A DNA stretch of 61,990 bases from Alphaproteobacteria bacterium (GTDB taxonomy: Bacteria; Pseudomonadota; Alphaproteobacteria; UBA2966): assembly GCA_018650465.1 (NCBI GenBank), contig JABIFY010000127.1, positions 1 through 61,990 of the forward strand. Reading direction: 5' to 3'. The translations under genes and the position numbers were made by a program. Below, one piece after another: positions 5,564 to 10,747 of the stretch. The notes beneath the pieces were generated by a model. The model had not been told where the DNA came from, did not search any database, and saw only the letters and a program-made list of their open reading frames with translations. Numbering within the stretch: position 1 is the first letter of the stretch; each line of letters opens with the position of its first letter.

Positions 5564-6031
5564 ATGGCTGGAAAAATTGACGCCAGACTTGCCGAACTCG
5601 GCATCGAAATCGCCACCCCGACACCCCCGCAGGCCAACTATGTACCTTACGTGATCAGCGGAAACCTGGTCTATGTTTCAGGCCAGGTTCCTGTTGTTGA
5701 TGGCGAGGTCAAATTCAAGGGCAAGGTCGGGGACGACGTTGATGTGGCGACCGCCGCCCAGGCAGCAAGAGCTTGTGCGCTAAATATCATTGCCCAGGTC
5801 AAGGCAGCCTGCGACGGCGATCTCGACCGGGTAAATCGCTGTATTCGCCTTGGTGGATTTATCAATGCGACCGCAGATTTCACAGAACAACCCCAGGTGA
5901 TCAATGGTGCTTCTGATCTGTTGGTTGAAATCTTCGGTGACGCAGGCCGGCACGCCCGCTTTGCTGTTGGCGCGGGGTCACTGCCGCTGGGTGTGGCCGT
6001 CGAAATTGACGCCATCTTTGAAATCTCCTGA
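5564..6031 (+). CDS. RidA family (YjgF/YER057c/UK114) protein, first of two tandem copies
   Basis: A 155-residue member of the longer RidA-like group. RidA enzymes hydrolyse reactive enamine/imine intermediates released by PLP enzymes. The deaminase Arg of canonical RidA corresponds to Arg132 in RHARFAVG, followed by the expected VAVEIDAIFEI strand. GGAGAG precedes the ATG. The next gene is a paralogue beginning with almost the same residues (AGKIDARLAELGI against SGKIEARLAELGI), only 18 bp downstream to its preferred start, so they are probably translated together. Activity is inferred from the family; some long RidA-like proteins are not imine deaminases. Confidence 0.9.
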   Translation: MAGKIDARLAELGIEIATPTPPQANYVPYVISGNLVYVSGQVPVVDGEVKFKGKVGDDVDVATAAQAARACALNIIAQVKAACDGDLDRVNRCIRLGGFINATADFTEQPQVINGASDLLVEIFGDAGRHARFAVGAGSLPLGVAVEIDAIFEIS

Positions 6032-6049
6032 AAACCGGAGCGCATGATT

Positions 6050-6517
6050 ATGAGTGGAAAAATTGAGGCCAGACTGGCCGAGTTGGGCATCACCCTGCCC
6101 CCGGCATTTGCCCCTGCAGCCAATTATCTTGGCTGGCAAATTGACGGGAACCTTTTGTATATCGCGGGCCAGGGCCCCGTGAAACAGGACGGTGGTCTGG
6201 TGACGGGCAGAGTCGGCAGCGACTTGACTGTCGAAGAAGGTTACGACGCCGCCCGCCATACAGCACTGGAACTGGTGGCCCACACCAAGGTTGCTCTTGA
6301 AGGAGATCTGGATCGGGTCAAACGCTGGGTCAAGCTGTTCGCCATGGTCAACTGCGGCCCCGATTTCGTCCAACAGCCACAGGTTATCAATGGTGCGTCT
6401 GATGTCCTGGTCGACATATTTGGCGATGCAGGTCGACATGCACGTTCGGCCGTTGGCATGAGCTCATTGCCCGTCGGTATATCTGTTGAAATTGAAGCGG
6501 TCGTTGAGATTGGCTGA
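6050..6517 (+). CDS. RidA family protein, second tandem copy
   Basis: A 155-residue paralogue of the preceding gene. Conserved blocks include INGASDVLVDIFGDAGRHARSAVG and SLPVGISVEIEA. The catalytic-type Arg is again residue 132 and is followed by Ser-Ala-Val as in classical RidA, where the first copy has Phe-Ala-Val. An upstream ATG at 6044 adds only Met-Ile, and the alignment with copy one favours 6050. The glycerophosphodiesterase gene follows 12 bp later. Two diverged copies side by side suggest different substrates or a hetero-oligomer, both inference. Confidence 0.88.
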   Translation: MSGKIEARLAELGITLPPAFAPAANYLGWQIDGNLLYIAGQGPVKQDGGLVTGRVGSDLTVEEGYDAARHTALELVAHTKVALEGDLDRVKRWVKLFAMVNCGPDFVQQPQVINGASDVLVDIFGDAGRHARSAVGMSSLPVGISVEIEAVVEIG

Positions 6518-8966: not shown

Positions 8967-9311
8967 ATGTCAGAAGCAGAAACAAATCGCGGCCAACATG
9001 ATATCGGTGGCCTGAATGTCGACAGCCTGATTGATCGCTCGGAGCATCGATTGTCACTGTCAGAGCGTCGGGTCGATGCCATGATGAATTTATTGTTTGC
9101 ACCTGACCGCAAGATATTCAATATCGATGAAATGCGTCGCGCCATCGAAACTCTGCCCAGTGATTTGTACGAAAACTATAACTATTACGAACGTTGGACT
9201 CTGGCCATGGAAAAGCTGTTGATCGGCAAAGGTATTATGACGGCGGATGAGATCACCGCCAAAGTTGCCGATGTGCGGGCCCGTTTGAAAGAAGCCGGAG
9301 TTTCAGCATGA
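8967..9311 (+). CDS. Nitrile hydratase-family beta subunit, N-terminal half (split beta)
   Basis: A 114-residue protein matching only the N-terminal helical half of nitrile hydratase beta: the GQHDIGG opening, a MRRAIETLPSDLYENYNYYERW segment (in two parts), and the MEKLLIGKGIMTADEI helix. In ordinary nitrile hydratases this is fused to the beta-barrel half, which here is the next gene. Separation into three polypeptides is the arrangement of thiocyanate hydrolase (ScnB-ScnA-ScnC order) and of a few three-subunit nitrile hydratases. The ATG at 8967 fits the family start. Its stop overlaps the next start (ATGA), so the pair is translationally coupled. Confidence 0.85.
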   Translation: MSEAETNRGQHDIGGLNVDSLIDRSEHRLSLSERRVDAMMNLLFAPDRKIFNIDEMRRAIETLPSDLYENYNYYERWTLAMEKLLIGKGIMTADEITAKVADVRARLKEAGVSA

Positions 9312-9640
9312 GCACAGAGACTATCCCGCCACGCTTTGGCATCGGTGATACAGTCCGTGTCAAATCGTTGAGCCCTGAAGGCCATATGCGGACGCCCTGG
9401 TATATTCGCGGCAAGGTCGGTGTCATTGGCGGCTTGATGGGCAGTTACTGGAACCCGGAAGAAAGCGCCATGGGCCGGGACGGCAAACCGGATCGTATGG
9501 TCTATCACGTACATTTTGATCAAGCCCGTTTGTGGCCTGATTATAATGGCAGGGAAACGGATCAACTGGTTGTAGACTTACAGGATCACTGGCTGGATAT
9601 CGCCAGTCCACAAGAACTGGAAGCGGGGAATTTATCATGA
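9308..9640 (+). CDS. Nitrile hydratase-family beta subunit, C-terminal half (split beta)
   Basis: A 110-residue SH3-like barrel corresponding to the C-terminal half of nitrile hydratase beta. It has FGIGDTVRV, a GHMRTPWYIRGKVGVI stretch, and VHFDQARLWPDY. The GHxRxPxYxRGKxGxI pattern is closer to what I recall of nitrile hydratase beta than of thiocyanate hydrolase ScnA, favouring a nitrile-hydrating enzyme; this is a judgement from memory. Start and stop both overlap the neighbouring genes by four bases, implying 1:1:1 synthesis of the three chains. Confidence 0.85.
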   Translation: MSTETIPPRFGIGDTVRVKSLSPEGHMRTPWYIRGKVGVIGGLMGSYWNPEESAMGRDGKPDRMVYHVHFDQARLWPDYNGRETDQLVVDLQDHWLDIASPQELEAGNLS

Positions 9641-10299
9641 GCCCACATGATCATGAGCACGGCGACGATCATGGCCACGATCACGTCTATGGCGATGATG
9701 ACCTTCTGGCCGAAGTTTTTGAAGGTGGCCCGCCGGACGATTATGAAATTCTGGAAATCGCTTTGCGTGAGTTGTTATTCGACAAAGGTGTTATCACGCC
9801 AGCCGAACTACGCGCCAAAATCGTCGAGTGGGATGGCAAGACGCCCGAAAACGGTGCGCGCATTGTCGCCCACGCCTGGGTCGACCCGGCCTACAAGCAA
9901 CGCCTGAAAGACGATTTTTACAGTGCCGCCGCTGAACTGGATATCGATACGGCTGGCCCTCAACTGGTCGCCGTCGAAAGCACAGACGATGTGCACCACG
10001 TTTTCTGCTGCACACTGTGTTCGTGTTATCCCCGTGCCGTCCTGGGCATCCCGCCGGAATGGTACAAGTCAAAAGAATACCGCAGCCGCATCGTTGTAGA
10101 CCCACGCAGTGTATTGTCAGAATTTGGCACCACCCTGCCCGACCACACAGATGTGCGGGTCATCGACAACACCGCAGAAAGCAGATACTTCGTCATTCCC
10201 AAACGCCCTGAAGGGACAGAAGGTTTAAGCGAAGAAGAACTTGCAAAACTGGTCACCCGCGATTCGATTATCGGTGTGACCGAAGCCCTCAAACCATAA
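9637..10299 (+). CDS. Cobalt-type nitrile hydratase/thiocyanate hydrolase-family alpha subunit with His-rich N-terminus
   Basis: A 220-residue catalytic subunit. The metal site is Cys125-Thr-Leu-Cys128-Ser129-Cys130. Thr rather than Ser inside the loop is the cobalt-type signature, and two of these Cys are normally oxidised to sulfinic/sulfenic acid. An extra Cys124 precedes the site. Downstream, WYKSKEYRSRIVVDPRSVL and RPEGTEG are family-typical. The first 16 residues carry six His (positions 4, 6, 8, 12, 14, 16) mixed with Asp/Glu, a likely metal-binding tail. No cobalt activator (P14K/NhlE-type) or amidase gene lies nearby. The reaction would be nitrile to amide, or thiocyanate to carbonyl sulfide. 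Confidence 0.87.
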   Translation: MSPHDHEHGDDHGHDHVYGDDDLLAEVFEGGPPDDYEILEIALRELLFDKGVITPAELRAKIVEWDGKTPENGARIVAHAWVDPAYKQRLKDDFYSAAAELDIDTAGPQLVAVESTDDVHHVFCCTLCSCYPRAVLGIPPEWYKSKEYRSRIVVDPRSVLSEFGTTLPDHTDVRVIDNTAESRYFVIPKRPEGTEGLSEEELAKLVTRDSIIGVTEALKP

Positions 10300-10321: not shown

Positions 10322-10747
10322 ATGTCTCAAATATCACTCGCCTTGGCAAACCAGATCATTGTCGCTGCCCTGAAAGCCGCCCGGGAAAAGAATTTTCAGC
10401 AATTAACCGTCGTCGTACTCGATGCCGGCGGGCACATGGTGGCGCTTCAGCGAGAAGATAATTCCGGCATTCTGCGTGTCGAAATTGCCACGGGCAAAGC
10501 CTATGGCGCTTTGGGTTTCGGTATTTCCAGCCGCAACATTGGTGCCAACAATACAGACCGTCCCGCATTTATGGCGGCAGTAAGTTCAGCCGCTGACGGC
10601 AAAATGATCCCGGTTGCTGGTGGTGTCCTGATTAAAAATGATGACGACAACATCATCGGTGCAGTTGGCGTCAGTGGCGACAATTCCGACAACGACGAAA
10701 TCGCTGCGATTGCCGGTATAGAAGCCGCCGGGTTAACGGCGGCTTAG
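10322..10747 (+). CDS. GlcG/HbpS-like protein (DUF336)
   Basis: A 141-residue Haem_degrading/GlcG domain protein. It shows VVLDAGGHMVALQREDNS, the KAYGALGFG segment and PVAGGVLI, ending in a GAVGVSG strand and a D/E-rich helix. HbpS of Streptomyces binds haem, and GlcG-type proteins occur in many catabolic operons with no settled role. It lies 22 bp after the alpha subunit and is probably in the same transcript. Its TAG overlaps the stop of the convergent aminotransferase gene by four bases. A chaperone or cofactor role for the hydratase is possible but unproven. Confidence 0.85.
   Translation: MSQISLALANQIIVAALKAAREKNFQQLTVVVLDAGGHMVALQREDNSGILRVEIATGKAYGALGFGISSRNIGANNTDRPAFMAAVSSAADGKMIPVAGGVLIKNDDDNIIGAVGVSGDNSDNDEIAAIAGIEAAGLTAA

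Follow-up and report, generated by a model that had tools for sequence, protein, structure and literature searches.

The 61,990-bp stretch of alphaproteobacterial DNA analyzed here (the window) includes a three-gene operon that likely encodes a three-chain, cobalt-type enzyme of the nitrile hydratase (NHase) family, of the same kind as ScNHase from Streptomyces canus, which would mature without a dedicated activator and with its β-N chain as the probable chaperone. The operon is a further member, found in another bacterium, of an already published activator-free three-chain kind. Its genes code for β-N, β-C and α, in that order (Table 1), in three separate open reading frames with no β-α fusion, and ATGA overlaps are found at both joints, β-N/β-C and β-C/α. 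Each of the three matched one Pfam family: NHase_beta_N (PF21006, 60.5 bits for a gathering cut-off of 21.5), NHase_beta_C (PF02211, 78 bits for 27.7), and NHase_alpha (PF02979, 245.9 bits for 27.2), respectively. A preliminary description had claimed that the β subunit is split into two coupled genes; the reading frames, the two overlaps and the separate matches bear this out, and the observation of a three-gene split-β cobalt NHase-family operon is confirmed. The residues His26, Arg28, Pro30, and Gly35 of β-C are invariant in 125 split β-C sequences.

Table 1. Features of the three-gene operon, in window coordinates.
Feature	Coordinates	Strand	Remarks
β-N gene (AnhD/ScnB-like half of the NHase β subunit)	8967..9311	+	114 aa; PF21006 2e-16; structural β type with Arg57
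β-C gene (AnhE/ScnA-like SH3 half of β)	9308..9640	+	110 aa; PF02211 7.6e-22
α gene (AnhA/ScnC-like)	9637..10299	+	220 aa; PF02979 2.4e-73
His-rich N-terminal tail of α, residues 1 to about 22, predicted disordered	9637..9702	+	6 His in 16 residues; residues 1-27 with AlphaFold2 pLDDT <50
Cobalt-site motif C125-T-L-C128-S-C130 of α	10009..10026	+	invariant in alignment A1
α Arg133, split-clade marker (Trp in most classic enzymes)	10033..10035	+	α alignment

The α chain has the cobalt-type motif CTLCSC (C125-T-L-C-S-C130), which was read within the sequence FCCTLCSCYPR. Cys124 directly precedes Cys125, so the extra Cys that had been noticed before the motif is indeed present; it is a rare feature, found in 3 of the 233 α chains with a readable motif. 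Two other positions separate the α chains of split-β enzymes from those of classic ones. At residue 133, Arg occupies 98% of 134 split-side rows of the alignment and Trp 89% of the 101 classic ones, and residue 176 is His in 78% of the split rows, Trp in 100% of the classic rows, and Ile in the window. The presence of Arg133 instead of the usual Trp suggests a substrate pocket that is more polar or anionic than that of the classic enzymes. Ile176 of α and Ser32 of β-N, a position where Trp is found in 85%, depart from the split majority, which counts against a standard enzyme of this kind, and activity could be altered. An AlphaFold2 model of α, made with a nine-sequence alignment, has a folded core and a mean pLDDT of 76.8 over the chain. 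The score of α with TIGR01323, the NHase α equivalog, is 233.0 bits, below the cut-off of 249.85.

An unrooted α tree, built by a quick search from 111 of the 235 rows, is divided by a single branch (SH-aLRT 100) into a split side of 53 rows and a classic side of 58. The split side includes the window, its sister genome (G001), Pseudomonadota, Chloroflexota, Rokubacteria, and Streptomyces sp. NBC_01176; the SAR324 loci (L047 and L054) are outside the 111 rows and are alike in split architecture and motif. The window α therefore groups with a Streptomyces three-gene enzyme and apart from the classic NHases, the Streptomyces row being that of NBC_01176 and not that of S. canus. The operon of NBC_01176 (L245) consists of β-N, β-C, α, an aquaporin, a hypothetical gene, and a NixA-type Ni/Co transporter; although it belongs to the same clade, the window operon has neither the aquaporin nor the NixA-type gene beside it.

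The three-chain structure is also that of the thiocyanate hydrolase of Thiobacillus thioparus (ScnA, ScnB, and ScnC), and the window enzyme could be one of these, converting thiocyanate to carbonyl sulfide and ammonia. Both have a split β and a His-rich N-terminus, which in the cobalt-containing thiocyanate hydrolase is that of the γ chain and starts with a His-Asp repeat, and the signature ILE-A-REL is common to the window α and γ, of which residues 1-95 were compared. γ favors the split profile (237.5 bits, as compared to 199.9 with the classic profile), unlike the cobalt NHases, among which the α chain of Pseudomonas putida gave 262.3 bits with the split profile and 356.7 with the classic one. 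Small differences of this sort mean little, since for four Fe-type chains (4zgj, 4fm4, 4zge, and 4zgd) the split profile also exceeded the classic one, by about 3 bits, but the 37.6 bits of thiocyanate hydrolase are a larger difference, and by profile score, as distinct from tree placement, γ would side with the split clade. However, the window α reached 188.7 bits with TIGR03887, the thiocyanate hydrolase equivalog, which is 103 bits short of the curated cut-off of 291.45, and none of 398 genomes of the phylum is above that cut-off. In addition, the window β-N matched the β chain of thiocyanate hydrolase at 8e-4 only, and no second β-N-like or accessory protein that could be a P15K homolog was found in the genome. 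P15K and the substrate thiocyanate are properties of thiocyanate hydrolase; P15K is reportedly its activator, as the title of Kataoka 2006 is said to state. Identification of the window enzyme as a thiocyanate hydrolase is thus improbable. The comparison also bears on the preferred reading, an activator-free NHase: because thiocyanate hydrolase has an activator and sides with the split clade by profile score, absence of an activator would not be universal on that side.

The genome that includes the window (4.8 Mb, 98.9% complete) has one PF02979 place, one β-N place, and one β-C place. Genome-wide, no second PF21006 place was found at E values up to 10, the sole place being gene 1 (β-N), and nothing scored above the cut-off of 46 bits of TIGR03889, the NHase accessory protein family, for which the best match was 18.2 bits, again on gene 1; an activator within an assembly gap is possible. 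Absence of an activator gene, proposed before on the basis of the locus, therefore extends to the genome in that no activator homolog is found in it. Since activators and β-N belong to one family, and in view of the 18.2-bit match, gene 1 itself was considered as a P14K-like activator, the structural β being then incomplete or located elsewhere. Several features of gene 1 are those of a β chain. All of 119 split and 88 classic β-N domains have Arg57 and Glu61, while in 83 activators the first of these positions is mostly Ala or Ser and the second mostly Gly or Ser; gene 1 has both residues and the HDxGG start, which are of the β type and absent in activators, and lacks the activator signature residues. 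In a β-N tree (103 of 291 rows, with few columns) split β-N and activators are each on one side of a branch, with SH-aLRT values of 92 and 97, classic β-N sits between them, and gene 1 groups with split β-N. The PF21006 search identified no other β-N in the genome that could take its structural place. Gene 1 was rejected as an activator on the grounds of its residues, start, missing signature, and tree placement, and the assignment is highly improbable.

Another candidate for maturation is a trans-acting GTPase of the COG0523/CobW type encoded elsewhere in the genome. COG0523 proteins serve Fe-type NHases, and two CobW_C (COG0523-type) proteins are indeed encoded elsewhere in the window genome; they could act as metallochaperones, which is also an argument against maturation by the operon's own products. 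However, such proteins are widespread (7 of 14 control genomes have CobW_C), no neighbor of the operon is a gene of that type, and the three ScNHase genes are reported to yield active enzyme in E. coli (PMC7329996), a point limited by the presence of CobW_C proteins in that host. We consider dependence on such a GTPase unlikely, and maturation without a dedicated activator is the reading that we favor.

To place the operon among its relatives, 240 α loci were read. They comprise loci of relatives, 80 named genome contigs, which were picked by similarity and are a biased set, and the matches listed of 385 genomes of the class, so that all class-wide counts refer to the matches listed only. Activators were searched for in flanks of 1.5 to 4 kb per locus, less at contig ends. 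With this sample, including the class part as matches listed, the 131 loci with Arg after CYP (CYPR) all lacked an activator match in the flank, whereas 96 of the 109 others had one. Removal of 6 duplicate α chains for the architecture and tail counts left, with the class part again as matches listed, 119 loci with the order β-N, β-C, α; 5 with β-C, α, β-N; 77 with fused β and an activator; 12 with split β and an activator; 9 with fused β and no activator in view; 4 with a CSLC motif; and 8 others. The split loci with an activator (13 before deduplication) all have Trp after CYP and the order α, β-N, β-C, activator, which indicates that β was split more than once. The five loci with the order β-C, α, β-N (L037, L072, L088, L089, and L097) form one tree branch next to Streptomyces. 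Whole genomes gave a similar picture. Among the matches listed, 25 of 27 single-α genomes of the split type have exactly one PF21006 place, their own β-N, and 43 of 47 single-α genomes with fused β and activator have two or more, so that PF21006 detects most activators. The exceptions in the split group are G550, with two places, and G043, with three. One extra copy of G043 was read and is of the β type; the third place of G043 and the second of G550 were not found within the 10 kb read. Extra tandem or nearby β-N copies are found in the split operons L081 and L246 (the latter in G043:C57), and their residues are of the β type and not of the activator type.

The preliminary description had also proposed that the enzyme could be a bacterial, unfused relative of the fused NHase of Monosiga brevicollis with a built-in cobalt loader, the His-rich N-terminus of α. 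The His count was correct: six of the 10 His in the 220 residues are within residues 1-16, and the hypergeometric probability of at least 6 His in the 15 residues after Met is 6e-6. A tail was taken as His-rich when a stretch of 15 residues ahead of the core included 4 or more His, with start codons picked by rule. By this measure, and with the class part as matches listed, 107 of the 124 split loci have such a tail, as do 48 of the 77 fused-β cobalt loci adjoining an activator, but none of the 12 split loci with an activator and none of the 3 CSLC-motif loci with one. The tail is thus more frequent on the activator-free side, and the class-wide draw, among the matches listed, points in the same direction (46 of 50 split loci versus 43 of 72 fused loci with activator). 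Furthermore, the sister species retains a His-rich tail of a different length, and loss of the tail in close orthologs, which would have argued against the proposed loader, is not what is seen there.

These figures could be taken to mean that the tail is a device for cobalt loading that replaces the activator. However, tail and activator are associated through a single tree branch, and with essentially one change in activator presence over the α tree such a comparison can offer little phylogenetic power. Moreover, activator-dependent relatives have the tail too. The closest solved α (3qxe, 2.1e-59), that of the cobalt NHase of P. putida NRRL-18668 (α, β, and P14K), has a His-rich N-terminus in an enzyme that differs from that of the window by its fused β, a separate P14K, and Trp after CYP; its mature N-terminus was found to be GQSHTHD by N-terminal sequencing, and P14K is reported to be necessary for functional expression (PMC3511329). 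The γ chain of thiocyanate hydrolase is a second such case. Conversely, 7 of the 124 activator-free split loci have a weak tail, in which no stretch of 15 residues holds more than 2 His, and 3 of them have no His there. The Monosiga enzyme is also a poor prototype for a loading tail, as a review states that its (His)17 is not needed for metal incorporation (PMC7193024). A tail that is common in relatives needing an activator is unlikely to be the replacement for one; on its distribution and the literature this role was rejected, and we regard a cobalt-loading substitute as quite improbable. The proposal therefore stands in part: the enzyme is bacterial, unfused, three-chain, cobalt-type and activator-free, with a precedent in S. 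canus (PMC7329996), while the built-in loader is contradicted by tails in activator-linked enzymes and by their absence in some activator-free members. The tail accompanies a wide range of cobalt NHases and is unlikely to account for the dispensability of the activator; we take it for a disordered appendage of these enzymes at large that probably binds metal and perhaps aids cobalt capture.

NHases hold Co(III) in a claw of three Cys, with an Arg from each half of β holding the oxidized cysteines, and hydrate nitriles. In the window enzyme β-N and β-C together would form the usual β subunit, α would bind low-spin Co(III) through Cys125, Cys128, and Cys130, and, as in known NHase structures, Arg57 of β-N and Arg28 of β-C would complete an active site at which a carbon-nitrogen triple bond may be hydrated to an amide. 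For maturation the model is ScNHase of S. canus CGMCC 13662, whose genes are in the order anhD, anhE, anhA and whose genome is described as having no activator gene (PMC7329996). The same source reports that AnhD (β-N) acts in vitro as metallochaperone and swapping chaperone, and that treatment of apo-AnhDEA with Co and DTT restored 36% activity and a metal content of 0.66 Co per protein. By analogy with AnhD, free β-N of the window probably pairs with apo-α as metallochaperone and swapping partner, and α may also be able to take cobalt directly under reducing conditions. The likeness to ScNHase (gene order, cobalt type, lack of activator) is one of description, as distinct from sequence, and ScNHase differs in being actinobacterial and in its substrates, acetamiprid and thiacloprid. 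The toyocamycin NHase ToyJKL of Streptomyces rimosus, likened to the window by description and not by sequence, is another three-subunit NHase, for which α alone is reported, in a citation by PMC7329996, to suffice for maturation and activity.

A wider reading of these data, which we advance tentatively and consider doubtful, is that the activator-free enzymes are a broad, old sister lineage of the classic NHases in which β-N serves as subunit and chaperone, with the P14K-type activator as a later duplicate and the Monosiga linker as the equivalent of the α tail. Two single frames, L012 (G039:C38) and L028 (G039:C192), have β-N joined to α via a His-rich linker, with no β-C alongside and one β-C place elsewhere in the genome. 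They suggest a bacterial counterpart of the Monosiga arrangement, in which the His linker would correspond to the α tail. The Monosiga enzyme, compared here by description and not by sequence, resembles that of the window in having β before α, a His-rich stretch preceding α, and no known activator, and differs in being one polypeptide from a eukaryotic clade. If the reading is right, activator-free three-chain cobalt enzymes span Pseudomonadota, Chloroflexota, Rokubacteria, SAR324, and Streptomyces and are not an oddity of one Streptomyces, P14K-type activators arose from a later β-N duplicate within the classic lineage, and fused eukaryotic NHases owe their His-rich linker to an α tail kept on fusion, as in L012 and L028. 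No description of such breadth was found in the literature searched, which was that available without subscription. The activator requirement limits the expression of NHases, which serve as industrial catalysts; a large activator-free group would be useful and would help to explain the origin of activators. The window itself contributes one more member and a clear negative, namely that its distinguishing feature is not the His tail.

The genes around the operon were compared by clustering the neighbors of 74 of the 80 named loci (activator-bearing and fused-β loci and one duplicate were left out) together with the window and L245. Most of the recurrent neighbors look like synteny among marine Rhodobacteraceae, and an aquaporin-like cluster (cluster names were given by eye) is found in 4 loci. 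The operon is preceded by a HIT-domain gene and followed by an HbpS-like gene and a class I aminotransferase; the sister genome G001 has these neighbors too, and among the clustered loci none of the immediate ones recurs elsewhere. Gene neighbors were thus discarded as a guide to the substrate, since the clustering gave no lead. The HbpS-like gene (10322-10747) starts 22 bases past the end of α and is retained in the sister genome and in no other locus read. At 5564-6514 the window has two adjoining RidA/YjgF paralogs behind an aldehyde dehydrogenase-like ORF, the dehydrogenase having been named by eye. Between the window and the sister genome (L005) β-C is only 77% identical, as compared to 92% for β-N and 96% for the α core, and changes at first and second codon positions are more numerous in β-C.
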